This document shows positions 5,071-63,187 of a DNA stretch of 64,000 nt, piece after piece. Every line of letters begins with the position of its first letter. Positions within the stretch are counted from its first letter, which is position 1. Both the position numbers and the translations under genes were made by a program. Under the pieces are notes generated by a model. That model saw nothing but the letters and a program-made list of their open reading frames with translations, was not told the DNA's origin and ran no database searches. The stretch covers positions 41,694,458-41,758,457 of the forward strand of contig NC_088300.1 of NCBI RefSeq assembly GCF_032854445.1, read 5' to 3'. The DNA comes from Liolophura sinensis (Eukaryota; Mollusca; Polyplacophora; Chitonida; Chitonidae).

Positions 5071-5159
5071 GTATGTTCCAATTTAGCCCATAAATATGTC
5101 CCAGGACACGGAATAAAGTGGGTGGGATAAATACCGTATCCCACCTTTCGTCAACAATG

Positions 5160-5260
5160 TTGAGAGAGCTACTTGATTGGCTCACAGAAGTTCATTCAAG
5201 CAATTAGCCAATCAAAAACTACGCACGGACCGGCTACTTTTTTTGACTACGTCATTTTGT
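5160..5260. promoter_or_regulatory. CCAAT/inverted-CCAAT pair with CRE-like site
   Basis: 'gattggct' at about 5,175 and 'agccaatca' at about 5,205 form an inverted CCAAT pair, followed by the CRE-like 'ctacgtcatttt' at about 5,248. This arrangement is typical of animal promoters. It belongs to a stretch (about 5,100-7,140) present in copy 1 only. No start codon or TATA box nearby ties it to a gene, so it is a weak call. Confidence 0.2.
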
Positions 5261-5556
5261 CGTCTGTACATTTGGGACAAAATCATGCTGGAACGACTGA
5301 AAATCTGAGATTCTGTCTCCACAGACAAGGAATATACTAAATATTCTCTACTAAAAACAAGTGAGAGTGTCTGGTGGTAATTATATAGCTGAACTTTCAC
5401 CAGCGTTACCATACACGTGCGCCACTGCAGGTACACTGTAAATAGTAACGATGTAAATTTACAGTAAAATTTGCTGGCAATTTTCGGACCAGCGAATTTT
5501 ACTGTATTTTTACATCACCACAGTAAAGAATTTTGCAAAAACTATCTATTATTCTT

Positions 5557-5645
5557 TCTGAGGGTTTCGAACCAGCGACCTCAGAGTCAGACCCAAACCC
5601 TCACCAATACATGTCCACCGTCTATTCCACTCGACCAACAGGCCC
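5557..5645 (-). other. tRNA-like sequence in left arm of foldback element
   Basis: Read on the minus strand, 'tggtcgagtgg' fits an A box and 'ggttcgaaacc' is a perfect B box, about 60 nt apart, as expected for a pol III internal promoter. The flanks do not form a convincing acceptor stem, so this is a tRNA-derived or tRNA-like sequence rather than a functional tRNA gene. Confidence 0.6.
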
Positions 5646-5888
5646 TCCACAAATATAGACGATAGCTGACCGGCACAGTTTACAGCGAACATGCATTACC
5701 CCTCTGATGATCACAAATAACGCCACTCCCTTAGGTGAATATATCAGATATATACAGATATCAGACATAGACAGATATATATTGTCTGATATACTCACCT
5801 AAGAGAGTGGCGTCAGTTGTGATCATCAGAGGGGTAATGCAAGTTCGCTGTAAAGTGTATCGGTCAGCTACCTTCTATGTTTGTGGAA

Positions 5889-5973
5889 GGCCTGTTGGTC
5901 GAGTGGTCTAGACGGTTGACATGCATTACTGACGAGGCTTTGGCTTCTGACACTGAGATCGCTGTTTTTTTTA
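5889..5973 (+). other. tRNA-like sequence in right arm of foldback element
   Basis: Mirror image of the left-arm copy. The A box 'tggtcgagtgg' is kept, but the B box is lost: after 'gagatcgctg' the sequence runs into a stretch of eight T. Only the left arm therefore retains both internal promoter boxes. Confidence 0.55.
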
Positions 5974-6187
5974 ACTGTAAATTTACATCTGTGGTTTTCA
6001 TAAAATTCTTTACTGTGGTGATGTAGAAATAGAAATTTACAATAAAATTTGCTGGCTATTTTCGGACCAGCGAATTTTACTGTAAATTTACATCGGTACT
6101 ATTTACAGTGTACAATACTCATAAACATACAACGTACGGGAAATTGTCTACTATACTATTTTGCCTTAAATACGTCCAAAATTTTAG

Positions 6188-6478
6188 CGATCACAATGTA
6201 CCCCCAACACAAATCATGCAAATAACTGGAACAAAAACGTACAGTCTGTCAACAATGATAGCTCACTTTCGGAAAGCCAGCACCGCGAAATATCCAACAT
6301 TCTCAGCTCTAATGACAGTTGCTCCCACCCTCGTCCGTTTACTGCAGCAAACAACACTGATCAAAATTTTGCCTGTACTAGTTCAACTTCATGCACTGAA
6401 CACAGGTCAAGTGCACCAATCTTCGGGGAGCCGATCTCTGGTGGAGTCTTCAGCATCTCGTATCCACCACCACAATAA
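6188..6478 (+). other. Possible terminal coding exon, Ser/Asn/Thr-rich
   Basis: A frame of 96 codons without a start runs from an AG at 6,186-6,187 (after 'ccaaaattttag') to a TAA at 6,476. The predicted peptide is rich in Ser, Asn and Thr and ends in ISYPPPQ, which resembles a disordered C-terminus of a regulatory protein. Against it, two other frames are open across the same region for about 150 codons, the polypyrimidine tract is poor, and no upstream exon is recognised. It lies in the 2-kb stretch unique to unit copy 1. It may be a fragment of a captured or broken gene, or chance. Confidence 0.2.
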
Positions 6479-6479
6479 A

Positions 6480-7140
6480 AACGACGAATATCCATGCGCT
6501 AAAATACTGTCGTCTCAGGGTAATCCAGTGCTCACAATTACCGAAGAAATGTAGATCGTAGCCATATATGCATTGGAAATGATGTTCTTTGTCAGTACGT
6601 GTAGGCGCATAAAATATCAACCGCGCGCTCAAACACTTGCACGTGCTGCCGGCCTCCTGACTGTTTTTCCCGCGACTTTTCAGTCTTTCCTTGACGGACA
6701 AGTTCGTAAACTGTTTAAAAACAATTGTTTGCTGCTGTGTTTTAATGTGTATAGATGGTAAAGGCCATTCTGTGTTGAACTCCTTAGTGTGGTGCATATT
6801 TGATCTTGGGTATAAATGTTGTGTTTTGGTCAGAGGACGAATGACTGACATACTTAAATTCCTCCGCACTGCTTCGTGTGCTTGTGTAAGCAGAGAATCA
6901 AGACAAAACATTCGCACTGATTTGAGGCATAATTTTGTACTTTTTTTTCAATTTTCCTTTTATGGGATAACCGGTATCTCGAGCTCGTGACCCTGTAGTA
7001 TCAAATTTATTAAACTCCAGTCAAAAATTTCTTTTGTTTTTCACCAGAGGTTCGAAACAAACGAAATTTTTAACTCTCGTTTTATACATTTCGTGCTACT
7101 CGTTGGAGATCCTCTATTTATCGTCTTAGACGAAATTAGT
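6480..7140. other. Unassigned sequence unique to unit copy 1
   Basis: Rest of the inserted stretch with no match in the other duplicated units. A long minus-strand open frame (6,450-6,917) shows no recognisable domain. I see no repeat or RNA gene. Confidence 0.4.
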
Positions 7141-9304: not shown

Positions 9305-11060
9305 GGCTAATAAACAGCATCTCTACTTTGAAAAGAATTCTCTAAATATACACGCGACTTGTAATAGGCCTTTAGTTGTCATGGCGGAGACTATAGATTA
9401 GGTTCCCTGATTATACATTGATCATGGGTTCCCGACTGTGCCAGAGGTGCCAAATTTTCCAGAACTGGTCAAGGCATGCAGTAAGCATACTCTACAGTCT
9501 GTTGAAATAAACATCATTTCTTCTATGAGAAGAATACTTCTCGCTCTGTATTTGGCTCAGCCCTAGACTATATATTGAGTTCGCATATTATACATTGATC
9601 ATGGGTCCCCAATCTGTGCCAGAGTTGACAAAAACGCTGTGATACTTATCTGTCACTGGATACTGTCTGTGGCATTGTTTACAGACTTACATGTATATAG
9701 CATGGCCGCAGATAACTCTACCACAGAATCCAAAATCGTGTACCTATGGAGTGAGAGAGTGAGTGCTTGAGGTTTAACGTCGTATTTAACAATTTTTCAG
9801 TCATATGACGACGAAGGAGTTCTTGAGTGCCCGTACCTGCAATGTTCCTCCTTGTTGCAGGAAGGATTTCCACCGCTCTTTTATCTAGTGCTGCTTCACT
9901 GAGACGACTTACCAAAGGCAAGTAATCCGCTCGCCCACCCGAGCCCTCATACTGATACGGGTCAACCAGTCGTTGCACTACCCCCTTTACTGCTGAAGCT
10001 CAAATTACAAATTGCTCTTTTTTAAGATCTTAGGTGTGACCCGACACAGGATTGACCCTGGAACTACCGCCCCCGAAGCGGACGCTCTACCAATTGTGCT
10101 ATCGGGACCGTGTGTACCCATAGAGATTTTCTTGACTTCTCCTGAATGACTGGGACAGATGTACATCACTTTTAGCTCGTGTTATCGAATTAGATACTGA
10201 TTTGCTAGAAATCTGTTACAGCAGGCAAAAAGTCTGCCTAAGTCATCTCTTTTGATAGTGTATAGAATAAATTCAAGAAACTTCCACCTGATGCTTGCTG
10301 TACATGCCGCCAAGGTTTTCCTGGTTCTGTCAGCCCAGAATACAAGGCACAATAAGAGTTTGATGTATGGTCCAGAGGTAGCTATCAACTTAAATTATTG
10401 AATCTGATTATGTTTCTTAGATAATACTAGCCGAACTGTGCTTGTGTTTCAAATAACACGCATAAGGCAGTATAAACTGTCAAAAAAGTTTATTTTATCG
10501 TGCTAGCTACCGTGTAATCGGAAAGCTTATGGTTGTCAACAGAATTGGTACATTGAAGCTCTATATAACATTCAGAATTTGCACTGACAAGTTTGAGTAA
10601 CGTATGATAGAAGCCAGGGCAGAAACATTTATCTAAGTGTAGAAGCAATAACATTCTTAGAACAGACTCTATCTGCAGGCAGAGATTTACTTCAGACATA
10701 CTGATGCAGAGCGCTGGTACAATCCCAGGATCCCTGATCGGCGTCTGGATGCCGGAGTCACTGAGAATCCATACATGGATAAGCGGTATCGTCCGTGCTA
10801 CTTCAGCCTGATCGATTCGGTATGTACAGGGAAGTCAAACATAGATACAGTAGTGATGCCAGACTGTGTCAGGAAGTTCCAGTGGTTGAAGCAGAGATAA
10901 TTGTGCTAGAGCGCCTAGCCTTGTTGTGACTCCCTCTTCGGGATACTCGCTGGTCAAGTCGCATAATGATATGTCGAGGAAGACGACTAGTCGTTGGCCA
11001 AGGAGGTGGCTTGTTTGAATATACTGGTTCTGTGGCGGTTGTAAGATGCCAGGCATCTGC
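9305..11060 (+). repeat. Segmental-duplication block AE, copy 2
   Basis: Second AE copy, broken by a full-length minus-strand SINE (9,745-10,120). It contains the 152-bp segment (10,733-10,885) missing from copy 1. That segment is about 95% identical to copy 3 by eye, clearly more than its flanks. Relative to copy 3 it has a one-base deletion ('caggaagttcc' against 'caagacggttcc'). Confidence 0.75.
9745..10120 (-). mobile_element. tRNA-derived SINE, family B, full length
   Basis: On the minus strand it starts with a tRNA-like head: 'gatagcacaattggtagagc' contains the A box and 'agggtcaatcctgtgtcggg' the B-box region. A core follows ('cgactggttgacccgtatca'), and it ends in 'tgactgaaaaattgttaaat' plus 'acgacgttaaacc'. 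About 375 bp. The head could be mistaken for a tRNA gene, but its anticodon-arm and acceptor pairing are imperfect and it is continuous with the SINE body. Family relatives lie at 13,720 and 60,165. The core resembles Meta/Deu-type SINE cores from memory; this is not verified. Confidence 0.85.
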
Positions 11061-18160: not shown

Positions 18161-18264
18161 GTCGTTATCAAAGACTAACAATATTCAATGAGTCATCTCC
18201 AAGGTGGTTATAATCTCACAAACACTCCTAAATAAAAACATTACATTGTTAATTGCCTCTAAAA

Positions 18265-19455
18265 CGGATCTTCGCACATGTACACTTACAGTGGCACGAT
18301 TCATCGCACATGTACACCTACACTAGCCCGGTTCATCGCACATGTACACCTACACCAACTCGGTTCATCGCACTTGTACACGTACACTAGCAAGGTTCAT
18401 CGCACATGTACATCTACACTAGCCCGGTTCATCGCACATGTACACCTACACCAACTCGGTTCATCGCACTTGTACACGTACACTAGCAACGTTCATCTCA
18501 CAGGTACATCTACACTAACACGTTTCATCGCACATGTACACCTACACTAGCCAGGTTCAACATACATGTCCAGTTCACTAGCATGTTTCATCGCACATGT
18601 ACACTTACACTAGCATGGTTCATCCCACATGTACACCTACACTAGCACGGATCATCGCACATGTACACCTACACTAGAAAGGTTTATCGCACATGTACAC
18701 CTACACTACCGCGGATCATCGCACATGTACACCTACTCTTGCACGGCTCATCGCACACATACACCTACACTAGCACGGTTCATCTTACACATACACCTAC
18801 ACTAGCAACGTTCACCGAACCTGTACACCTGCACTATCACGGTTAATCACACATATACACCTAAACTGGAAAAGATCATCGCACGTGTACACCTACACTA
18901 GCATGGTTCATCGCACACATACTCCTACACTAGCACGATTAATCGCACATGTACACCTAAACTGGAACAGATCACCGCTTATGTACACATAGACTAGCAC
19001 GGTTCATTGCACAGGTACACGTGTACTAACACGATTCATCCCACATGTACACCTACACTAATATGACTCATTGCACATGTACACCTACATACACTAACAC
19101 GGTTCATAGCACATGTACACGTGCACTAACACGGTTCATCGCACATGTAAACCGACACTAGCACGGTTCATTGCTCATGTACACGTACAGTAACACAGTT
19201 CAACGCATATGAACACGTACACTAACACGGTTCATCGCACATGTACACCGACACTAGCACGATTCATTGCTCATTTACAGGTACAGTAACACGGTTCAAC
19301 GCACATGTACACTTACACTAACACGGTTCATCGCACATTTACACGTACACTAACACGGTTCATAACACGTGTTATTCTACACTAGAACAGATTTTCGCTC
19401 ATGTACACCCACGTTAGAACAGATCATTGCACATGTACGCTTACACTAGATTGAA
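18265..19455 (+). repeat. 32-bp minisatellite, about 37 units, with 96-bp higher-order repeat
   Basis: Consensus unit 'tagcacggttcatcgcacat' plus 'gtacacctacac' (32 bp). Near 18,311-18,500 a block of three variant units (96 bp) repeats as a whole. Units diverge toward the right. Because 32 is not a multiple of 3, open frames across it cycle through all three phases and encode nothing meaningful. There are no unique spacers, so this is not CRISPR. Confidence 0.95.
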
Positions 19456-20162: not shown

Positions 20163-20347
20163 ACATATACATTTTATTTATTTGCTTACTTCGTTGTTGT
20201 TTTACGGCGTACCTAAGAATATTGCACTCATACGACGGCGGGCAGCATTATGGTGGGAGGAAACTGTGCAGAAACCGGGTGAAATGCACGGCAGGTTGCT
20301 GACAGACCCTTCCACGTTCGGCGAGGAAGGCTGCATGAGCTAGACAC
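20163..20347 (-). mobile_element. SINE family A fragment
   Basis: Minus-strand tail and body: complements of 'gttttacggcgtacctaag', 'cattatggtgggaggaaac' and 'gcgaggaaggctgcatgagc'. The tRNA head is missing. Confidence 0.75.
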
Positions 20348-20449
20348 AGCGTTGTTAGCTACAAGTACAATGATAATGTATATAAATGTAAATTGGCGGT
20401 TTATCGTGCACCGTACAATGGAGAACTGATCAGGACATTCAATAAGCAA

Positions 20450-21620
20450 ACATTTCAGTCTCTTGTAATAGATAACATCTCTAATTTGAGGAGAATACCC
20501 TAAACATACAGGCGCAGTGTAGGTCTAATTAGCTTAGCGCAGACTATAAATTATGTTGACTCATTATACATTGACCATGCATACCAACTGTGCCAGAGAT
20601 ACCAAAACATTTAGAATACCTATTTGCCACAACTATTGTCTGTGGCATGTTTTTCAGATTTACATAAATCTAGCATGGACACGTGACCTATTATTCTATC
20701 GCAGAATCCAAAATCGTGTACATCTGGAGATCTCCCTAGGAATTTGTGCTAAATGGCTTGGACCAGATATGACTCACATTTAGCTCGTGTTATCGAATTA
20801 GATAGTGATTTGCTGGCAGTCTATTCCAGCAGGCACAAAGCGTGCTTAGGTCATCCTTTTATAATGTATAGAATAAATTCAAATGAGAAACCTACAGTTG
20901 TTGATTGCTGTGCATGTCGCCAAGGTTTTCCTCGTTCTGCCAGCTAAGAATACACAATAGGGCATTGGTATAGGGTCCAGCGGTAGCTATATACGAAGTA
21001 CGATAATAGAAACCAAATATTTTTTCACTCAATATTACCCGAGCTGTGCTTCTGTTTCACATAAAAGGCAGTATAAATTGGCAAAAAAGTTTATTTTATC
21101 GTGCAAGCTACCTTGTAATCAGATTGCTTGTGGCGGTCAACGCAATGGGTACATGCAAGCTCTATGTGACATTTGTACTGACAAATATGAGTAAAGTATG
21201 TTAGAAGCCAGGCCAGAAGCATTTATCTAAGTGTGGAAGCAATAACATTCTTTGAACAGACTCGTCGTAAAAAGCTATCTGCAGGCAGAGATTAACTTCA
21301 GACATACTGATGCAGAGCGCTGGTACAATCCCAGGATCCCTGATCGGCGTCTGGAGGCCGGAGTCACTGGGAATCCATATATGGATAAGCGGTATCGTCC
21401 GTGCTACTTCAGCCTGATGGATTCGTTATGTACAGGGAAGTCAAACATAGATACAGTAGTGATGCCAGAATGTGTCAAGACGGTTCCAGTGGTTGAAGCA
21501 GAGATAATTGTGCTAGAGCTCTTCGCCTTGTTGTGAACCCTTTTCTCCCGGTCAAGCAGACTTTTGAGAGATCGTATGTTCGAATCTAACTTTTTACTGA
21601 CCCCAAGGCGGCTTTAAGAT
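20450..21620 (+). repeat. Segmental-duplication block AE, copy 3
   Basis: Matches copies 1 and 2 ('tttcagtctcttg', 'tctgtggcatgt', 'ataatgtatagaataaattc'). It contains the 152-bp segment at 21,340-21,491. An open frame over 21,252-21,536 has no known domain, and most differences from copy 2 change the amino acid, so it does not look like a constrained exon. Confidence 0.75.
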
Positions 21621-27994: not shown

Positions 27995-28072
27995 GCTGGA
28001 TGTATAACTGTGGCGTTCTGGTTCAGTGAGACTGTCTAGCTGTGGGACGGAAGCAGACGGACACACCAAATC

Positions 28073-28448
28073 ATGGAGCCTGCTGATAACTTGTATGAGT
28101 TGGGGTACGACAACCATACATGGAGCCTGCTCCAGGACGCGAACCCTTCATCCATGGTTAACCTGTCACACCCACAGACGACCCTGCCAACCGCCAGGGA
28201 TACTCCACACCCACCTCTCTACATCCTCGTCATCACGACGGTGGTATGTGTCTTCGAATTCGTCATTGGGATTATCGGTAACTTGTTAGTGGCCGTGGTG
28301 ATTTGGAAAAACAAAGACATGAGAAACTCGACAAATTTTTTTCTCCTGAACTTGAGTGTGGCGGATCTGCTGGTGATAGTCGTGTGTATGCCTTCTGCTG
28401 TCATGGAATTACATGCCCGTGATTACTGGTACCTCGGCGAATTTATGT
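28073..28448 (+). CDS. Peptide-type class A GPCR, exon 1 (N-terminus to start of TM3)
   Basis: Codes for residues 1-125 plus the first base of codon 126. ATG in a good context (atcATGG) follows an in-frame TAG at 28,037, which fixes the start. The extracellular N-terminus (1-48) has glycosylation sites at N14 and N30. TM1 (about 49-76) carries the GN motif (N70) and TM2 (about 87-112) carries LSVAD (D98), the conserved sodium-site Asp. The donor is gtaagt at 28,449, phase 1. The matching exon is at 51,172. Class A receptors of this type bind neuropeptides at the cell surface and signal through G proteins. Overall it looks most like invertebrate TRH/ghrelin (GHSR)-like or CNMamide-like receptors; that subfamily call is from memory and the ligand is unknown. 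Confidence 0.9.
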
Positions 28449-31400
28449 GTAAGTAATCTCCTAATCTCATATGCCATATACCTTGAAACAGTCTGGTCCA
28501 GCTTTTCTGCATACATTAACAACTGTAATAGCGGAGAAAAATAAGTCTTCTGTCTGTGAGAAGAAACAAATTTCCTTTCTCTCTTTAACATGTAATAAGG
28601 AACGGATAAAACGTTCTATTTAAAACACGGTTTAGTATAAATCAACTATTTTTTTCATATCCAATCTTTCTGACCACATTCTGTACTTTTTATTGCATTT
28701 GTAAATTTTAAGGATAGTCTCGTAAACGAAACAGTATACCATACACCAAATAGGTCGTACGGTTTGGTTTCTCACAAGAGTAGTGCCTAAAGGCTGCAGT
28801 ACATTTGTATATAACTAATTATAACCCTCATGACATGTACAAAATTGCTATTACTTTTTTTTTAAGACAACTACAATTTTACATCTTTTTCAAGTCACTT
28901 GATGTAAACTGCATTCACCCTAAATTGTCTTTTTTTCTTCATCATTTTTAATAGCTTTCTTAATTTCTGCATGTAAACTATTTGTTTCCTGTCGCGATAC
29001 AAACTTTCTCACAATGCTGGACACCACTAAATGGATACTGGCACTATGGCAAACAGTTTTATAATAAACACTTCTGTTCTCAAGGAGAGTTCTTTACCGA
29101 ATCGCGGTTGAGGTAGGAGTAAGGTATATTATATATCAAGCGATGGGGAAAGTGAATAATTGGATCTATTCATTTATTTATGGGGAACAGTTTTATGGGT
29201 TGTCTAAAGATACGACTGCATATGGAATCAGTGAATGTGACTTAACGTCAAAAAAGCACTTGCTGTAGAGAATTTAGTCTAGTGATTATTTGGACATATT
29301 ACTTCCTTCGATCATTCCTCCGCCCCAGTCTCTTCAATCCTCTCATTATATACCCTCTTAGGGCTGTAATACGTCTCGCTTTATACTTGTCACGCAACCT
29401 ACTCATTCCGAGGTGCGAGTTCTTTTATCCTAACCAGTTCGACACCTTTAGTAATGATGTCCAGTGTATCTCAAAACAGTCGATTTCAGGTCAAGCGAAT
29501 TGTCTGAAATGGTTTTGGCAAGATGCGCTTTTTGTTTGGCTCTAATTCCACAGCGGCGTCTTTTGGTGAGACACAACACTACCTACAAATTACTCGAATC
29601 GCAGTGTGTGGTTCCAAGTGACTTCGAATTACATCCACAAAGAAGCCTACATGTGCTATCTCATCTGAGTACCAAAGGGTTTTATGTATGATAAGATTGT
29701 AGCTTGCAAGATTGCAAAAATGTACCCCTGATACCACGGCGAAAATTTGTTACAATATCTATCCAGCGATTTGACATCTTATCATTTAACACATGCCAAA
29801 GTTACTCAGTCGTTGTTGCCAAGTGTTAGGAACTCACCATAATTTGTATGATGAATGTTACCTCTTAAAGCGCTGAAAGAAATGTTGGATTATCTTGACG
29901 GCAACTCCCCTTCGGGTTCTATCAGCTGAACTTCAGATCTAACATGAACATTTTTCAGATGTCTCGCCCGAATGTTTATTCCATGCAGGGTATCTGAGCT
30001 CATTATAATGGCATTTAATCACTCTTTCGATTAAATTTTAAGTTGGGATTGTTTGATTAAATGTTTCGCGTCCAGCTTTTCGTGCTGAGAACGTTTCATG
30101 TTGCAGATTATCTTGACATGCGCTTAATTATTTACGGAAGTTGTGCCTGGAAAAGGGGCTTACAGTAACGTAGCTGTGATCTGGTGGGCTTATCTTGTGT
30201 GTGAAAAATGTATGGCTTTCTCTGTGTCCAGTTGTTTGCAGATAGCCCTATCGACTATCTACAAGACAAGTTGGGACGATGGACCACAACGCTTTATTGT
30301 CAAAATGAAATCAATGTGTAGGAGAGGATAGCCACCGGTTGTTGGTGTAATTTTAAATTTTATGTGATTTTTATAAATTATTATTCATCAGAGTGTGTTA
30401 TACTTGTGAATAGCCTATAAATAGGAATAATGACATTATTCCGGTGGGAATTCCGGTTCTATCCCTAACAATTAAGTCTTACATTTCCCACTGACGTATG
30501 AAAAAAGCATAACATATTTCTTTCCAATAATGTTTAAATTCTTGTATGACGATATTAACGATGTGATTTTCATGTCGCATGAGAAACCGTTCATACACTC
30601 ATGTCTCTTGATTAAAGCTGTCTGTACCGAAGAAAAAGTTAATTTTCAACAAAGAGAGATAGTCGTTCTGTGGAAGGAAGTTTGAACTGCTGTCGCTAAT
30701 GTGTCCTCCAAAATGCGGCTTTTGTACACGGCTGTCCACTGTTACGTTTGTTTCACGTATTTCCATGTACTGTGATGTAAATTACGGATATTTATAGCCA
30801 GGAGGATTGGGAAAAAAGTTAACAATGACCTAGAAATAATCGTTTTCTGGGTGTTTATATCAATATGTAAATAAGTTTTCTAATCCGTGCCTTTTTTTTC
30901 CAAGAAAATTTTTTTTAAGCTGTTGTATATGTGTGGTGATGCGGGTGTGGTCTTGGAGGATGTACAAACTCCAGTCCACTGATATAACAAGCTAGGTCTT
31001 AATGTCTTACACTTGCTCATGTTTAAGTCAGATTCGATACTAGTGTCACAAAAAGGGCAACAATTATAAATATTTGCTGGTGGACTAAGCACACCGCCAC
31101 CCACCCTTCCCGATTCCGGGGCCCTATGCATTGATTTCATATTATTGATTATTAAAAGTGATAGCAACGCAGCATTTTGAATAATTCTAGCTTACTGGTG
31201 TTTACCAAGTTGACAAGTTGAATTCACTGTATTTTTTCTACTGGCTCTGCTTAAGCCATGGTGCTAGTTGGCGCTTAGTTTGCTACTATTTAAGCATTTA
31301 CCTGAACAGTTGGAACAAATCTCCAACTGGCTGAGGCTATATTTTACTGGTAACGTATAAACATTGACCAACTACCACACAATCCTCGCTGCTCTGGCTT

Positions 31401-34939: not shown

Positions 34940-35065
34940 CAGGCTGCAGGTGGTCGTGGGTTTCCCCCGGGCTCTGCCCGATTTCCTCCCATCGTAATGC
35001 TGGCTGCCATCGAATAAGTGAAAATGGCGTAAAAGACCAATCAAATCAATAAGTAATACATTCGG
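34940..35065 (+). mobile_element. SINE family A, 5' truncated
   Basis: 'ggtggtcgtgggtttccccc', 'gggctctgcccgatttcctc', 'taatgctggctgccatcgaa' and the tail 'aatggcgtaaaagaccaatc'. Confidence 0.8.
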
Positions 35066-35910
35066 GCCTGGCAGATTCCCTTATAATAAACTGACGGCCA
35101 AAAGAAACTTTACGACTCCGTGAGCTAAAGAAGAAATTTAAATATCATTCAACTACCACTGAAAAGAGTATGCTTTTCCTTGCAGGTGCATGCCATAAAA
35201 AATTCTAATATGTACTTCAAATTGATAAATTATAATTGAAGTCAGGGCCAAAATCCGCTGTGGGCGACTCCATTTTGCCCAAGAACCTCTGTGTTAGGAG
35301 GAGAATTGCCGTCGGAAACCGCCGAAGTGCAGTTCGTACACCAGAACTCTTCTTCCCAGAAGGTAAGGAACAGTACGGTTGGTTTACCGCTTGACGATCG
35401 GGAAACCGGAATGTTGGACGTAGGTTCCGAGTTTACACGAACAAGCCGGCAGTTTTAACGACTCTCATTGGCTGAGAGGCAACACACCCCCAGCATAAAT
35501 TACAGGGTATTAAGATGGAGGAGGCGATGGAGGAGGCGATTTATGCCAGCTTTGCCGTTTTTAGGCTTTACGTGTTTGGCGAGGAAAAATGGCAAAATTA
35601 TGCAGCAGGCACCACCAGATACAAAAAGTGTGCTCATTTCAGTCTATAGTGTCATGTTTTTAGGTTTTTCTTCTCCTTTAAATTTAACCAGCCTTTTCAG
35701 CAAATTAATACCAAATTATTGCAGGAAAACATTGTGGAAACTTATTCCCATGTGCGACAAGTGTCATATACGTCCACACGAATTTGTTTTGAGACAACGA
35801 AGAAAGTTGAAAAATCACGTGACCCATGGATGGCCGCAACTGCACATGTAATAAGTGTACAAAAACCTTACACACAGTGTGTTGGACTTGCACACTGACT
35901 AAAAACCAAG
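35066..35910. other. GPCR intron, probable left flank of the Tc1 element
   Basis: No recognised gene. The part nearest 35,910 probably includes the 5' flank of the transposon, but I could not identify its terminal inverted repeats. Confidence 0.35.
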
Positions 35911-35912
35911 TA

Positions 35913-36885
35913 GTGCCTCGATTGACTCTAGAACAATGCGAGAGGGCCCTGGGTATTGTATCAATGGGAGCCACCCATTCCCAAATTGCAAAGACCTGTT
36001 TAACTGTGTCAAACTTAACAGACAGACAGGGCAGACATCGGACAGGCCAAGAAAATGCAGGCCTTGGGTAACTACGCCCAGAGAAGACGGCTACCTGCGC
36101 ACCTTAAACCCGAGGAACCGCTTCCTGACAGTGACGTCATCGTCAATCAATGCCTTAGGTCATCGGGTTAGTCGGCAGACCGTGTCCAGGAGACTCAGTG
36201 CTCACGGAATTAGGGCCTATCGACCATTCAGAGGGCAGTTGTTGACAATCGAACATCGTCCGCGAGAGGTTTCGATGGGCTCGAATTGTACGCCGTTGGC
36301 AGCGACGTGTTGTTTTCACGGATGACAGCCGCTTCTGCCTGTTCCGGTCCGATGGCAGACAGCGAGTTTACCGTCGAAGAGGCGAACGAACGGCTGCATC
36401 ATGCGTCCAGGAGGTGGTTTGGTGGCGGCAGCGTGATGGTGTGGGATGGGATTTGTGGAGAGGAACGGACACCACTGGTCCTCATCTACGGGAACCTAAC
36501 AGCTCAACGTTACGAGGATCAAATTCCACGTCCTGTTGTCCTGCCATTCCTTCAACAGCAGCCACGTGGTGTCCTGTACCAGCATGACAACGCCAGACCC
36601 CATACACCTCGAATTGTGCAGAACTTCCTGAACGCCAACGACGTCAACGTTTTCTCGTGGCCTGCACGTTCCCCAGATATGTCTCCCATAGAACACCTTT
36701 GGTATGTCATGGGTCATCGAGTAAGACAACGGCCACACCTTGCAGCCAACCGACAAGAACTGACGTTCGCTCTCCAAGATGAATGACAACGAATCCCACG
36801 TCATGTCATCAGACGACTGACTTTTTCTATGCGTCGGAGAGTTTTTGCATGCATTGAAGCAAGGTGTGGCCACACACGATATTGG
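35913..36885 (+). pseudogene. Decayed Tc1/mariner-type transposase (DD34E)
   Basis: Starts as PRLTLEQ (ATG changed to GTG), with the helix-turn-helix region interrupted by a deletion near 35,990. The second DNA-binding part RVSRQTVSRRL follows in another frame; then FTDDSRF (first Asp), with further frameshifts near 36,262 and 36,412. The rest is open: GGGSVMVWDGICG, QHDNARPH (second Asp) and SPDMSPIEHLW (Glu), with exactly 34 residues between the last two catalytic residues. It ends near GHTRY. The catalytic core is largely intact in sequence but spread over three frames, so no active enzyme is made. It lies in the sense orientation inside the GPCR intron. Confidence 0.9.
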
Positions 36886-37860
36886 TTGGTTTTGATATTG
36901 ACTGATTTTAAAAATAATCAACCTTTTGTGTCACTCTGCCCAATGTTAACCAAGATGGAATGGCTATTTTCTACACCTTGTTCTGTTTGTTCACTTAAAA
37001 ATGATTTGAGGGCTTATTTGTCTGTTCTTACTCAAGACTTTCAATATCTAAAGTCATTGGTCTTTTCAATATATTAAACTTCAGTCATCCTGTTTTTTGC
37101 TTTGGAAAAATAAATTGATTTGAAGTCTTTGTAAAGTTTCTTTTGGACGTCAGTTTAGTTCAGTACGTTGACGATCTGCATTTGACAGATGTCAAACTAG
37201 TACTGCTCTATTTGACTTGTGACATTTTAGATGAGTTATTTTAATTTGTGGTTTGTTTGACCTGTACAAAGGATGTAATCGAGCAAAATATAAACAGAAT
37301 TTAAAGAAGATTTTTCTTTGTATACCTACCTTTATCTTGGTATTTGTGACCTTTTGAGCAAAACACGATTATTATATGAAAACGGATACGAAATAGTGAT
37401 GTACCTTTTAAGAGAAGAAACTCCATTACTGCTATTGTTTTTAGGGCTTTGGTGGCAATAATGGGCCTACAGCTCTCATGTGAACCTTTGGGTCGTCTTA
37501 CATGAAATTCGCTCTAAAATCGCTTGGCATCCGGAAATATATAATACACATTCAGCATGGTTTTCAGGTGAAAATCTGGTTCACATGTGTGAAACGTCGT
37601 CAGGTGTTTGCCAAATCCAGACAGTTTATTTCATTCATGAACCTAAACGTATAAGTGAAAATATTCTTAAAAAGGTGTTAAACCTCACCATTCAAGCCGT
37701 ATATTATGCAAGGCTCAGAGAATTGGAACTTTCCAAGTTTTCGTGAACATTGAACGTCATTTAAATCTGACCAGATATGAAAACAAAATAATCCGCAATA
37801 TAAAGTTTGACTCGCTCGAAATCATCCCCGCTCGCTCTCAAGTCCCCTGACTGTTTAAAG
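36886..37860. other. GPCR intron, nothing recognised
   Basis: AT-rich sequence with no domain-bearing frame. Confidence 0.4.
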
Positions 37861-43769: not shown

Positions 43770-44000
43770 GGCGCAAAGGTTCACGAGAACCACACCACTG
43801 CGTGTTCAAGTTCAGCTCATGCTGGCTTCCTTTCTTGCCGTTTGCGGAAGGTCTGTCAACAACCTGCGTATGGTCGTAGTTTTAGCTCGGGCTCTGCCCG
43901 GTTTTCTACCACCATAATGCTGGCCGCTGTCGTGTAAGTGAAATATTCTTGAGTATGGCGTATAACATTTATTAAATAAATAAATTAATAAATAAACAAC
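43770..44000 (+). mobile_element. SINE family A, near full length
   Basis: 'gcgtgttcaagttcagctca' (B box), 'tgctggcttcctttcttgcc', 'gggctctgcccggttttcta' and 'gaaatattcttgagtatggc', then an (aaat)n tail. Confidence 0.85.
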
Positions 44001-49304: not shown

Positions 49305-49720
49305 TCACGACCTCATCAGTGAAGATCTAGTTGACTGTAGCAAATGGAATTTTTCACCGCACAACATCATTAGTGAAGATCTAGTGTAACTACTCTTATT
49401 TTTCAACATATCACCTCATCATTGAAGATGTGAGTTCAACTCCAGCTCATGCTGGCTTCCTCTCCGGCTGTACGTGGGAAGGTCTGCCAGCAACCTGCTG
49501 ATGGTCGTGGGTTTCTCCCGGACTCTGCCCGGTTTGCTCCCACAATAATGCTGGCCAACGTCATGTAAGTGAAATATTCTTGAGTACGGCGAAGAACACC
49601 AATCAAATAAATAAATAAATAAATCAACACACGACCTCATTCTTGAAGATCTACCTGGCTGTAGATACTCAGATTTTTCAACAAGCGACCTCAATGGTGA
49701 AGATCTGGTTGTTCTGTAGC
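49305..49720 (+). repeat. About 56-bp minisatellite split by a SINE
   Basis: Five units around 'cgacctcatcagtgaagatc' with a 'tttttca' end: at 49,305, 49,362, 49,412, 49,627 and 49,683. Units 3 and 4 are separated by the SINE at 49,428-49,626. Confidence 0.8.
49428..49626 (+). mobile_element. SINE family A inserted in the minisatellite
   Basis: 'gtgagttcaactccagctca' (B box), 'ggaaggtctgccagcaacct', 'gactctgcccggtttgctcc' and 'gaaatattcttgagtacggc', then (aaat)n. The A-box part of the head is missing. Confidence 0.85.
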
Positions 49721-51171
49721 TATTAAGACGCCAGGAACACTCAGCCAAAGATATACCTTTTTTCCAAATATGAAATATAGTCCAATGATTGTATGTAGTT
49801 TAATGTGCCATCGGCTTGATACAGACAAGAACTGCGTGTTTAGTTCAGAACAAGATGACAAGTTGAACACCTTTACTTAATTGTTATTTCTCAGTACATA
49901 ACGTGTAGGTATTTTATGGCTTTGAGGTGACCATCCAACTGGTAGTGTCGTAAATAGGTCTATGGCCTAATGTAATAACAGTCGTTCGCTCTAGGAGTGG
50001 CAAAAATCGCATGTTAATAAAACCTATTACAAGAAGCCCATTGAAAGCAAACACAAATAAATACATAATTCTTCCAGTTTAGAACTTACATAGATCTTCC
50101 ATTTTCATCAGAAAAGGTTTTTTTCTTGTTATTAGTACATTAAAATTTGTGTGAGGTGATGCTTTCTGACATAGAGTACAGGCATTGAACCAATACATCA
50201 CAGACCAGATGCGACTTACAAATATATACATCAGAGCCATTACATTATATGCAGCAAATACAAAAGTTTTTATAGTTTGTGGTAACGGTTGGACAATTCG
50301 GTGTTATTCAGCCTGGAGGCTTTGTGCATATTTTGTTAGGCTTGTGAGACTGTGTTCGGGCTGGGCATGGATGGAAAGATACGTGTGACCAGGACACAAA
50401 ACTGCACTCAGCCTTTAGCCACTTGCTTTAGAATGTCAGTACCAACACAAATTGAATAATTTCGAGGACTTGGTAAACATATTAAATGACATCTAGTGGT
50501 GTAAACTTGTTGTGTAAAAGTCGTAAACTTGGTCACCCCAATGTCCGAATTAAAATGGCGAACGATTGCTTCAAGTTCGCTAAAAAGGTAAAATGAAATA
50601 CATGCCGCTCGGAACTTAAACCAATGTTGTTATCGTGTTCTATACCCTATTATTTTGTGAGATGAATAGAGAGCCAAGAACACAACACATTAAAAAGACC
50701 GCTTCGCCTTTTAAAAGGTGTATATGTCTTGCAGCCTTGTTGTTGTTTGTTGAGGAAGGATTGCATCATCTAGTTAGGTGTTGCAAGACAATTGCATATT
50801 AATTTTTTTAATGAAGTTTTAAGTGAATTGAGCATCTGGTGTCATTCAGTCTTTATTGAGAAGAATAATACCGGGCTTAAGTTTTGAACTGTATTTTGAA
50901 CTGTCTTACGTACAGTTTGCTATTCTACAGAAAAATGCCCATTCTAATAATCGCTGTAAAATAACATTATCATCAGGGATTTAAGCTGTATATGTATTTA
51001 TACACATTAACTAGTCTCAGAATTTCTCAGAATTATTGGTCAATTAATCTCACTGGAGTTACCTCCCATTCCCTTGCCAGAGGTCACGTTTCCATTTCCG
51101 CTCAATACGATTCTTATTTATTTTCTCATGATTATGTCCACTTATCATACTTTGTAATTATGATTTTTCAG
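49721..51171. other. GPCR intron, right end
   Basis: No repeat recognised. Ends in the acceptor 'tgatttttcag' at 51,171. Confidence 0.5.
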
Positions 51172-52121
51172 GTAAACTGGTGCCTTTCTTGGAACATTCC
51201 GTGGCACACGCTTCCGCCTTGACAATCCTGGTGATCAGCTACGAGCGCTACTTCGCCATTTGTCAGCCTCTGAAGGCCCAGTACATCTGCACGGTATCCC
51301 GGACTCTGAAGCTGATTGCCGCAGTCTGGCTCATCTCACTGAGCGCCTCCGTGCCCTTCTTCACAATTGCTCTGTTCAAGGATTCTCAGTACATGAATGG
51401 CACCCCAATTAAGGTCTGTCGGCAGCCCCTTCAAACCCCTATTCGCCGGGCTTTCATCCTTATTCTGATGGTCATCTTCTTCATCATTCCCGTCGTCGTT
51501 CTGGCCGCCCTCTATGCGCTTATCAGCAAGAAGCTATTCCGGGAAGCGATCTGCCCCGAGATGCGGATGGATAAGCGGGCCATGGCCACCCTGATGGGTC
51601 GTCGTCAGGTCGTCGTCTTGCTCCTCACCGTCGTAGTACTCTTCCTCATATGTTCCCTTCCGTGGAGAGTGCTTACCACCTGGCTCGCCTTCGCCCAAAA
51701 CTCCGACGTCGAAAAGCTTGGCTTCGAGGGCTACCTGGCTTTAGTGTATTTTGCCCGTGTCATGTTTTACTTTAATAGTTGTGTGAATCCTATCATCTAC
51801 AACATGGTATCCACCAAGTTTAGGCGAGCCTTTAAGATGGTCCTCATGTGCCAAAAGAGAACATTACAACGTCAGGACACAGTTACCTTCTCTACTGTGA
51901 CGTCATTGTCACGTCATCATTCCAGTATCCACAGCAGCTTCAGCAATTCGTCGCTGAGAACTCAAGAGGTACACGACTCGGTGAACATGTATTATGAGGT
52001 TCCTGTGCGTGTGACTTCAGGCACGAACAGCCACACAACGCAGAGAAGGGTTGATAGTGACACGGACTTCCCTGTCACACGAACACTCATGGCCATTCCG
52101 GATGAAATCGAAACGTCTTAG
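51172..52121 (+). CDS. Peptide-type class A GPCR, exon 2 (TM3 to C-terminus)
   Basis: Begins after 'atgatttttcag'; the first two bases complete a Cys codon (C126, the TM3 disulfide Cys). The whole protein is 441 residues. TM3 ends in ERY (150-152); W178 marks TM4; the second extracellular loop has C208, partner of C126; TM5 spans about 218-243; TM6 has CSLP with P289; TM7 has NPIIY (331-335); a possible palmitoylated Cys follows at 352. The Ser/Thr-rich tail suits kinase/arrestin control. Oddity: the usual TM6 'toggle' Trp (6.48) is Ser here. This exon is more GC-rich than its surroundings, as expected for constrained coding sequence. Candidate poly(A) signals: attaaa near 52,320 and aataaa near 52,846. 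Confidence 0.95.
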
Positions 52122-55100
52122 ACAGGTGGCTATGTGAAATTCTTTCATCATACCTATTTAGACTCGTGTTTCAAGATGAAATGTACACTGTAGCTGAGTA
52201 TATTTTCACATTTATTACAAAAGCTGTACACAAGCTGTACATAATGGTAATACATGCCAAATTCCAAGCCACTTCCTTCGAAACTCTGTGTCAAAGCTTG
52301 ACTCATAATAGTATAGTGAATTAAATAATGAATATTACTGTATCAGTCCTTTAAGCCATGAAGATACAAAGGTGATCATCCATTATTTTCAAATATTCTT
52401 TTTCAGTTCAATTTCAGTATGGTGTATTCATGAAGCTGCTTTCCTTCCTGTGGCGAAATATTCAGCTGCGTTACATAAGTCAATCTGCTTTGCGCGTACT
52501 ATATTGATTGGTAACAATGTTATAGTCTCTTTGTTTCAACTTGTCGCCTAATTTCAGCTATCTATGAAATCTATAAAATCCGTCATACTGGCTACCAAAG
52601 TTGTCTTTCGTCAGTGATATGTAACACCACCTTTCCAAATGATGACTTCATTGCCAAGGATGAAGTCATAATTATTCACAAGCAAGCCGCAAAATGGGCC
52701 AGTTTTATATCCGCATCCCAAGCGGTTGGACCAAACTCCACGCAGTAACGATGCCTACACTGTAGTCTCGCGTAATAGAGTATTCTTTTTTTTTATATAG
52801 CCGAATGTCCCAACTACCGTGAGATTATGTAGCTGAAAGAGGTAAAATAAATTTCATTTACTAAGGTTGTATTATACTAAATCTCGAAGATGATTTCACA
52901 AATGGCCGTGTCAGAAACAGGGTTTAAATTTAAGTCGATCAGAGGTTAGGTACAAGTAACTGGTGTCGCTTCTCTTCAAAGCATACTGGACTCCACAAAC
53001 TGTCCAGCATGCCTTCGTTTTTTCCATAATTATGGCGTCACTGGAGGCAATGAGTTCTTTGGAGTCGAAACCAAGCGTATGAGAGCATGTGTATAGAAAA
53101 CCATTCCATTTCTTCTCCTGTTTTTTTGACTGTAAGAAATTTGTTTATTTTGACTGTAAGAAATTTATTTTATTATGGTCGTCAGAAATAATGTTCCTGC
53201 TATGGGTGTCTAGTGGCAGTTTTATAGTCAATAAAGTGGACTAGATTAAAAAATTTCAGGTCTCAGTCTACGCCTTCAACCTAATATAATGACTATTTCT
53301 ATTTATGTAATCGAACGAGCCTGTTGCACGCACACCAAAGGGAGTAAAACATGAGATTTATAGTCTTTGGTCGTCTTCTTTATATGTAATACCAAAACGG
53401 TGGAGGGTTATAGAATCACCGATTTATCTTCCCAGTAACGCGAACATACAACAACGCCATTGGTCATGTTCTAAAAACAGTCGTCAGTGTATTTCGTCAA
53501 ATGTGAAGAATATATTTTATCCTGTGTGACATACACGTAACGTTTCCAGATTCCACTCGCCATTTTTTGGCTAAAATATTGCTTGTGTAGTGTTAAACCA
53601 GTCACTGATTCTCAGAAGGCAATTGATATACGAGTTCTCACTTTTCGCCTAGATTCCCATGTCTACTTAAGGTCAGACCCCTCTAACTTTAAACAACCAA
53701 TCTCAACGCAACCTTTGTCAGAAGCATTCCTGTGGGTGCCATTACAAGGCATAGAACGACATTCGTTGGCTGGAAAGAAAATCAATTACCACATTTGAAT
53801 AAACCAGTACCCAACCGTCTATGCGCTGATTGTCTCTTTCAGTTACTGGGAGGCATTATTCTGAAAGATAACTAAAACTACTGGCAAAAATTCCGGACAT
53901 TATGACATTAATCACTGAAAACACTGTAGTGGTTGGCTTATGTTGTCTCAAAGCTGATAGCTGAAAACGTGTTTCCCGCTTTCAGAGAGGGTCAATAATG
54001 GTAGCAATATAATGTCTCTTTTCAAACAGAGCAAAAGAACGAAGTCCAATGCTTTCATGTCTTCACGCTAAACAGTGTAAGATTGTCCTGGGCAAACATT
54101 ACAAACAAGTAAGATCATTTGTTTGGTGGACTTGGCAATTTGTAAACAGATACATTTGTGAAGTTAACTCAAAACTGTGCTAATTTCTATGCCACAATTA
54201 TTTGATTTCTTTGTCAACTCTCTTACAAATGTCCTAAATTATATTATAAACTTTTTATTATGGCTTAACGCTAGTCAATAAAAAGAAAAGGTTGACTAAT
54301 AACACCATACCAGGTATAAAAGAAAGGTGGCTATAAAAGTAAGGCAAGTTCTACCGTTTTCCCCAGCAGTGGAAAAGCAAACTTGATCCCATGTGTTCTC
54401 GAAGGGTCAAGGTAACATTTACATCCATACTAGTAAGCTTTCAATGTTTGATAAATAGAATTTAAATACAATTTTATAATAGTCAAAGTAATCTATTTAA
54501 GTGTACATAAAATACCGTGCAACGCTTTAAAACATGATAACCTTACATGAAGGGAAATTCAATTCCAGATAGTAACAATTACCTCCTGCTATGATTAATG
54601 CACGATTAGTGCATTTCTTGGATTTGCTCAGGCCTTAAACTGGCGAAATCTGCCTTTGCCTTGACGTTTGCCGATAAGAGAAAAAACACGACACTCCAAT
54701 TTTTCACCGAACTCTTATATAGTAATTGTACATTAGAACACTACTATATATGTACCTGTGCTGTATATATACAGCACATTACATGGTCGGGAACAAAGTT
54801 TTACCGATTTTAGAGATAAAGAAGTTATTGACGGAGAAATGCTTTATTTCTAAAACCGGTGAAACTTTTGAACGATACAAGTGCACTTGCCATCGGGAGA
54901 CGATTTCAATCTAGTTGCTAGGTGTCCTTTGTATTGCATGATATAACCAACTATGGATTTTTATGGTAGCTACATTGTTTTGTGGTGTATACGACAAGGT
55001 TTCAGTTCATGGTTTGAGCTTACCAAATAGCGACATTATGATGTGAACCTGGTTGATAATTGACTTGAATCATGATAATTTAGGTGGGAAAGGCTTATTG

Positions 55101-55205
55101 TTGCCAAGACCCGACCACACAGTTGGGGGTGTGTTGGGGATGGCGGAGTTAGGGGGAGGGTGTTATTGTCGCCAAGGTCCCACAGTGTAGTGAGGTGGGG
55201 GGGGG
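52122..55205. other. 3' UTR of the GPCR gene and intergenic sequence
   Basis: Candidate poly(A) signals lie near 52,320 (attaaa) and 52,846 (aataaa). Beyond these, no gene or repeat is recognised. Confidence 0.4.
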
Positions 55206-55207
55206 GA

Positions 55208-55292
55208 TACCTTCCAAGGCCCGGTTTGAACCCTTACTGATGTGATTGAAAGGTAAGCACCTTTAACCACTAGACCAAGGCCCTCTCCCAGC
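55208..55292 (-). mobile_element. tRNA-derived SINE head or tRNA pseudogene
   Basis: On the minus strand 'cttggtctagtggttaaagg' contains an A box and 'agggttcaaaccgggcc' a B box. The flanks do not close an acceptor stem, and the sequence continues into a G/T-rich body, so a SINE head is more likely than a tRNA gene. Confidence 0.6.
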
Positions 55293-56027
55293 GGACCGAA
55301 ACATGTAATATAACCGACAAGCATTGGTACAAATATATACTGCCGTCCTTGAAAATATGACGCTAGCTTGGAAGGTTGTCAGAAACTCAGTCTGGAACAA
55401 ATTTAAGGGTCATTTGAGAGAGACTAGCTAGACGTAATAAAATCACTTGTCTAACAGATTCGACTACCGAGCTACCCGGGTAAGATCCGGTAACAAACTC
55501 AACTCTGGTCTCACTCAGGTAATTTACTGCAGGTCACATTTCTCAACGTTCATTAACTATTCTTTTGCTCATCCAGCTGTCATTCCCACGTGAGCACTCC
55601 CATTTGGACGAAGAAAGGGCACTATATGTGACAACGTGAGAATTGCCAGACACGTTAAGTCATAAATACTGGTACTCTGGCACTCTGCATCACATGGTCT
55701 GGGGACCCTGGGCGTTGTAGGAAGGCATTTAGGAAGTATGACAGAGATATGTATATCATAAATAGGTATCAGTGACATAATCTGTGGAAACAAAGGCAGT
55801 AGTGGAATATCTCATTTGGTCTAGATCAATGGAGCTTACTGGGAATCCAGGACCGACCCAGACTGTATGTTGTTTACACTGGTTTTCCATTTCCCGAGAA
55901 TATTTCAGTGGCATATATATCAGCGGATAAGGTCGAATGATAAAAAAAAACTGACGTTCCACCTATGCACAGTTGATGACCATTGTACATTTGGGAGCAT
56001 TGGAGCTAGGTGTATAGAGCATTATTT
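55293..56027. other. Intergenic, nothing recognised
   Basis: No gene or repeat identified. Confidence 0.4.
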
Positions 56028-56118
56028 ATTTTTTTGATTGGTGTTTTACGCCGTACTTAAGAATATTTCACTTACACGACGTCGGTCAACATTAGGGTGG
56101 GAAGCAATCAGGTTAATT
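56028..56118 (-). mobile_element. SINE family A, 3' end fragment
   Basis: 'gattggtgttttacgccgta', 'cttaagaatatttcacttac' and 'acattagggtggga' are the complement of the family-A tail and body. Confidence 0.75.
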
Positions 56119-62345: not shown

Positions 62346-63187
62346 AGAACACTCATAAATCGATACAACATGTTTGCTAAATGTTCTCTTCTTTGACGAG
62401 AGGGCACTCGTACCTTCATTGATCATCACTTTATCGTCACATCTCGTATGCAGACAACGTATTTGACAATTGTTTTTCCTCATTATCTATATATAGGTGA
62501 GATATCAGCATTGCTAGAATCTTCGGTCTTTGTCTTGATTTCCATACAAGGAAAATCTTATTTAGGTCATTCACACTGGCAAAAAACACAACCTGTTTTA
62601 ATTCTGTCTTTAACCATCATCCTCTTTTCTAGTCACAGTTGTTATTTATTTGTGTTGTAAATGAGGGTTTATGATTGCCTTACCGTAAGACATCTTTACA
62701 ACCCTTCGTCAATATATTCACATTCGCAATAAGGCGCTTGATTTGCTGCTACCACTTTCACAAAAATTCCTAAGTCACATTTCTGATAACTTTTTTCGTA
62801 AAAGACGTTGTCTAGGTTATAGCCGACGTCATTAACGTGGAAAGTTACGAAAAACTGAATCACGAAGTTTTGTGAAAGTGGCTTTTGACAAACGAAAAGC
62901 ATGGCAAAAAACATTCCTGTTAAGTACAGTGACTAGTACATAGATTTGACACACAGTGAGGAAGGACACAAAGAAAGGCTGAATTAACTATTTGATTAAA
63001 TTGAATCATAGGTTTGCAACTGCGAATTGTGACTTGAAGACAGACATTGGACAGAATTCAAAGCTCTGTCGAAAATCAGTATTATTAATTTTTTTAAGCT
63101 AAACACCTAGGGGTGGAAGAGGCTAAAATAACTTCAGACAGTGTGATCTAGATGTTCTAGGTGTGTTGTATTTCTTCTATCAAATAG
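62346..63187. other. Intron 1, right end
   Basis: Contains the imperfect inverted repeat 'gctaccactttcacaaaa' (near 62,748) against 'ttttgtgaaagtggct' (near 62,868). No coding sequence before the acceptor at 63,187. Confidence 0.4.

Follow-up and report, generated by a model that had tools for sequence, protein, structure and literature searches.

A putative foldback DNA element with tRNA-like segments in both arms from the mollusc Liolophura sinensis

An inverted repeat of 683 bp in the genome of the mollusc Liolophura sinensis is probably a foldback (MITE-like) DNA element, non-coding and decayed, that captured a tRNA-derived segment, and it is most likely now inert. The repeat occupies positions 5431-6113 of the window, by which we mean the whole 64-kb stretch of DNA analysed here (64,000 nucleotides; assembly GCF_032854445.1, contig NC_088300.1, positions 41,694,458 to 41,758,457 of the forward strand), and all coordinates below are those of the window. 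Compared with its own reverse complement using BLAST, the element is 78.6% identical over 709 columns. Among the 12 close inverted pairs listed in the window it scores 509 bits, against 78 for the runner-up, and 2 of the 12 are nested hairpins of the element itself. The first-pass annotation had described a near-perfect palindrome; an inverted repeat does lie at exactly these coordinates, but 'near-perfect' is too strong for arms that are about 78% identical with gaps. The arms are approximately 320-340 nt long, their innermost parts are 36 nt apart and together they make up nearly the whole element, as in foldback elements. The features discussed below are as follows.

5431 to 6113, no strand: whole foldback element (inverted repeat), 683 bp
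5431 to 5447, plus strand: left terminal inverted repeat, 17 bp, including GTAC (TA or GTAC being the possible target duplication)
5450 to 5516, plus strand: left outer hairpin, with 28-nt stems that are 89% complementary and an 11-nt loop
5537 to 5541, minus strand: T5 run, candidate Pol III stop, beginning 21 bases past the left B box
5563 to 5573, minus strand: left B box, exact match to the presumed consensus GGTTCGANNCC
5627 to 5637, minus strand: left A box, exact match to the presumed consensus TRGYNNARNGG
5651 to 5748, plus strand: left central arm, upstream of the A box, with 87 of 98 positions matching the right arm
5749 to 5784, no strand: AT-rich centre (loop) of the palindrome
5896 to 5906, plus strand: right A box, with no B box after it
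5965 to 5989, plus strand: T8 run (5965-5972), then the tip motif for a third time (ACTGTAAATTTACATC, 5974-5989), at the position expected for a right B box
6033 to 6094, plus strand: right outer hairpin, in the orientation of the left one and hence inverted relative to the rest of its arm
6097 to 6113, minus strand: right terminal inverted repeat, 17 bp, identical to the left one

Counting aligned positions without gap columns, the arms match at 45 of 47 positions in the tips (96%), at 48 of 54 in the inner stem (8 gap columns) and at 67 of 78 in the tRNA-like segment outside its B-box part (4 gap columns), so that inner stem, remaining tRNA-like segment and central arm are each 86-89% identical. 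The B-box segment stands at only 13 of 25 (13 matches against 12 mismatches, about 52%; 9 gap columns). In the loop of the outer hairpin, 4 of 5 positions match and 12 columns are gaps, a poor alignment that arises because the loop is reversed between the arms. The tips did not differ significantly in divergence from the other arm parts (2 mismatches in 47 positions versus 28 in 230; Fisher P = 0.13; the counts exclude gap columns, the two loops and the B-box segment).

The element has terminal inverted repeats, as MITEs do. They are perfect over 17 bp, and complementarity is 96% across the outermost 47 nt. The 17-bp terminus does not occur again in the 64-kb window at up to three mismatches. 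Next to the tips lie nested palindromes, as first reported for this element, and one of them has changed direction: the part of the left hairpin at 5455-5516 is directly repeated at 6033-6094, with 58 of 62 positions matching in direct orientation compared with 45 of 69 columns in inverted orientation. The better direct match indicates that one copy of the outer hairpin was flipped relative to its arm. The candidate target duplication is TA or GTAC, and trimming the ends differently also yields 2-bp direct repeats; as GTAC is self-complementary, a duplication of this kind is indistinguishable from the final bases of the inverted repeat. A TA duplication with CACTG tips would presumably resemble Tc1/mariner elements.

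Within each arm lies a segment with Pol III promoter boxes, defined here by A-box and B-box consensus patterns. In the left arm the exact A and B boxes are 53 bases apart, a tRNA-like spacing of the kind seen in SINEs, and they form the only exact pair at a separation of 25-70 bases in the window. No such pair arose in 200 dinucleotide-preserving shuffles, in which exact B boxes appeared at a rate of 0.22 per shuffle over both strands; the plus strand of the entire 64-kb window holds no exact B box. With one mismatch tolerated per box, pairs also appear at two other places (near 50181-50247 and 55141-55233), which leaves the exact match as the only distinctive one. In the right arm the A box stands alone, in keeping with the first-pass annotation that only the left arm keeps both boxes. 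The same annotation called the segments tRNA-like in both arms and opposite in orientation, which holds for the box patterns but not for a tRNA fold: the Rfam tRNA covariance model (RF00005) matched neither arm at E values up to 10, and 'tRNA-like' therefore refers to the boxes. The arm segments may at best be decayed pieces resembling a SINE head. ARAGORN found no tRNA in a default run, and with a lowered threshold it returned 107 candidates across the window, which made that run uninformative. A separate tRNA match at 10037-10108 on the minus strand (32.3 bits; Rfam threshold, 29) was likewise unreported by ARAGORN at its default settings.

The element appears to be non-coding, as MITEs are. 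None of the three frames tested (6033-6551, 6453-6947 and 5215-5514) matched Pfam at E values up to 0.01; these frames overlap the element or lie within 350 bases of it, and a minus-strand frame at 5871-6098 (76 amino acids) falls outside the set. The window contains no second copy. Pattern scans of two contig collections in which the host is not expected gave no match for any of six patterns in viral_contigs and, for one pattern in genome_contigs, two matches in bacterial MAGs. We judged the latter to be chance, because in neither did the second hairpin stem extend further than the five bases that the pattern required.

The element sits in the first 27 kb of the window, which are partly related in three copies (approximately 0-8.4 kb, 9-18 kb and 20-27 kb). 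Parts of a stretch of 8-10 kb occur three times in diverged form (for example, at 536-1089, 10182-10737 and 20790-21343), and the triplicated stretch at 1-27000 is an old tandem duplication. Around the element, approximately 2 kb (about 5085-7110) are unmatched in both related copies of the locus. Because this gap is longer than the 683-bp element, the related copies provide no clean empty site. The unmatched stretch fits an insertion-rich region; the other two copies resemble each other more closely (62% over 1,830 columns) and could share a loss.

Other repeats and genes in the window are noted here for context. A Tc1-like element at 35087-37157 has 27-nt inverted repeats (35087-35113 and 37131-37157) and a frame at 36214-36783 (190 amino acids) that matches DDE_3 (E = 2e-9); we set it aside as a partner of the foldback element because its terminal inverted repeats, compared by eye, are unlike the 17-bp tips. 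A dispersed repeat of approximately 200 bp, with the 3' half in common, occurs at 49429-49629, 43799-43998, 301-481, 20173-20383, 56022-56112 and 34944-35056. It may be akin to molluscan V-type SINEs; a literature text search with part of its sequence returned no hits. Small palindromes at 62752-62881, 6995-7099 and 54795-54868 are 72-76% self-complementary and are possibly other MITE-like elements. At 18264-19449 a 32-bp unit is repeated about 37 times in an array. Two rhodopsin-family receptor fragments (7tm_1), as would fit an animal genome, lie at 51132-52118 and 28040-28453; the match to the family has an E value of 3.4e-32, and neurotensin and ghrelin receptors are the closest among solved structures. 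The fragments cover profile positions 59-260 and 1-59, respectively, and given this complementary coverage a single neuropeptide-receptor-like gene may have them as exons.

Several observations point to a foldback or MITE-like origin. Perfect tips of 17 bp bound an inverted repeat of 683 bp, and the homology between the arms spans tips, tRNA-like segment and central arm alike. The exact box pair absent from all shuffles, the flipped outer hairpin, the lack of Pfam matches in the three frames tested, the possible TA or GTAC duplication and the approximately 2 kb missing from the related locus copies point the same way, and the MITE MER6 offers a precedent (PMC6887750). Weighing against this origin are the single copy in the window, the ambiguous target duplication, the lack of a clean empty site, the absent tRNA covariance match and contig-collection scans that gave nothing but two chance bacterial matches.

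On this reading, a small element with terminal inverted repeats would have captured a tRNA-derived (SINE-head-like) segment, and an inverted duplication would then have produced two arms with such a segment in each. A transposase acting at the 17-bp tips may have mobilized the unit as DNA. After the doubling, exchange or template switching within the nested palindromes might have flipped one outer hairpin, and the same process could have written a further tip motif over the right B box. In this history the capture before doubling, the mobility, the transposase family and the mechanism of flipping are inferences.

A different history, in which a stretch containing a tRNA-derived repeat and MITE tips underwent a one-off local inverted duplication, by template switching or break repair, and the palindrome was never mobile, is somewhat unlikely in our estimation. 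It would accommodate the single copy in the 64-kb window, the ambiguous target duplication and the diverged, internally rearranged arms, but it leaves aside the perfect 17-bp tips adjoining nested palindromes, an arrangement seen in DNA elements. The position of the tRNA-like segments bears on a further explanation, which corresponds to the inverted dimer of the first-pass annotation. They are oppositely oriented with their 5' sides facing the centre, as would result from two SINE copies inserted head to head, with tips or mobilization by a transposase acquired later. A SINE begins at its RNA-related head, whereas the inverted homology here extends some 110 bases beyond the A box on its upstream side, as far as the centre, and outward to the tips; together with the missing tRNA covariance match, this makes a head-to-head insertion quite unlikely. 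The inverted dimer of a tRNA-derived element suggested at first pass is only partly right. The segments are indeed found in both arms, and a mobile inverted dimer is a possible reading, but homology extending about 110 bases past the A box means that a tRNA-derived element is smaller than the unit repeated here, and homology reaching centre and tips makes the tRNA-like part look like a passenger within the arms and not the unit that was dimerized.

It would also be conceivable that the locus is retained for small RNAs, as a long-hairpin RNA or miRNA-like gene. Its predicted RNA fold is very stable (-401 and -423 kcal/mol for the two strands, compared with a mean of -162, s.d. of 16 and lowest value of -194 kcal/mol for n = 39 other plus-strand windows), and Rfam miRNA models give matches, of which the best is MIR810. 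Those listed all fall below their gathering scores (92.3 bits versus 170 for MIR810) and are spread over both strands and many unrelated families, as might be expected of any long hairpin, and we rejected these matches for this reason. The numerous mismatches and indels between the arms also count against a retained hairpin, as does the direction of the left promoter, which, as predicted from its boxes, faces outwards, away from the centre, and meets the T5 run early. Pol III starting from this promoter should therefore yield a short arm RNA and not the hairpin, stopping before the tip; a long dsRNA would have to come from transcripts that start at a different promoter and read through. The earlier proposal that the arms form a long dsRNA hairpin if transcribed thus fits the predicted fold but not the promoter, and we consider conservation for small RNAs very improbable. 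Palindromes of this kind can also arise as assembly or amplification artefacts, when one strand gives a false palindrome. Near-identical arms would then be expected, whereas the observed identity is about 78%, with indels and one flipped hairpin. The divergence of the arms argues against the assembly artefact that the first-pass annotation had named as a possible refutation, and we give an artefact a negligible chance.

Foldback elements such as FB of Drosophila and TU of sea urchins consist mostly of inverted arms with repeated internal motifs and little unique centre. The element from L. sinensis has the same arm-dominated layout; unlike these foldbacks, which are not known to do so, it holds a tRNA-like segment in its arms, and it is present as one copy in the window. 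With tRNA-derived SINEs (class II, with a Ser/Leu-type head) it shares the exact, suitably spaced boxes of its left arm. It differs from them in the missing covariance match, the homology upstream of the head and the lack of a SINE tail recognizable by eye. As described by Luchetti et al. (2019, PMC6887750), MER6/MER6A is a Tc1/mariner-type MITE with an inserted V-SINE, 865 bp in length, with a TA target duplication and 24-bp terminal inverted repeats. Like MER6, the foldback element is non-coding, is bounded by terminal inverted repeats and contains a putative SINE-derived piece that would thereby have spread as DNA. MER6 carries, in the same account, one SINE piece comprising body and tail without the tRNA-related head, whereas here a tRNA-head-like segment is found in both arms, the inverted repeat is nearly full length and a single copy is known from the 64-kb window. 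A MITE that carries a SINE is thus already known; the layout of the element is unusual and its kind is known. In a survey of bivalve transposons (PMC10294476), MITEs take up a considerable share of genomes, and TcMariner and hAT are among the richest groups of DNA elements. We found no description of a foldback with a tRNA-like segment in each arm in the titles and abstract openings of the open-licence papers that our searches listed or in the passages of that survey.

A bolder extension of the preferred foldback reading, which we consider unlikely, is a family with one outward Pol III promoter per arm, in which transposase would move the DNA, Pol III would make short arm RNAs and the tip hairpins would flip. 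As a single decayed copy, the element is mainly a curiosity. If it belongs to a multicopy family, that family would have a tRNA-derived promoter in both foldback arms, a step beyond a MITE with one SINE piece, and would hold a record of how a palindrome rearranges itself, in the form of a flipped hairpin and a tip motif that replaced a promoter box.
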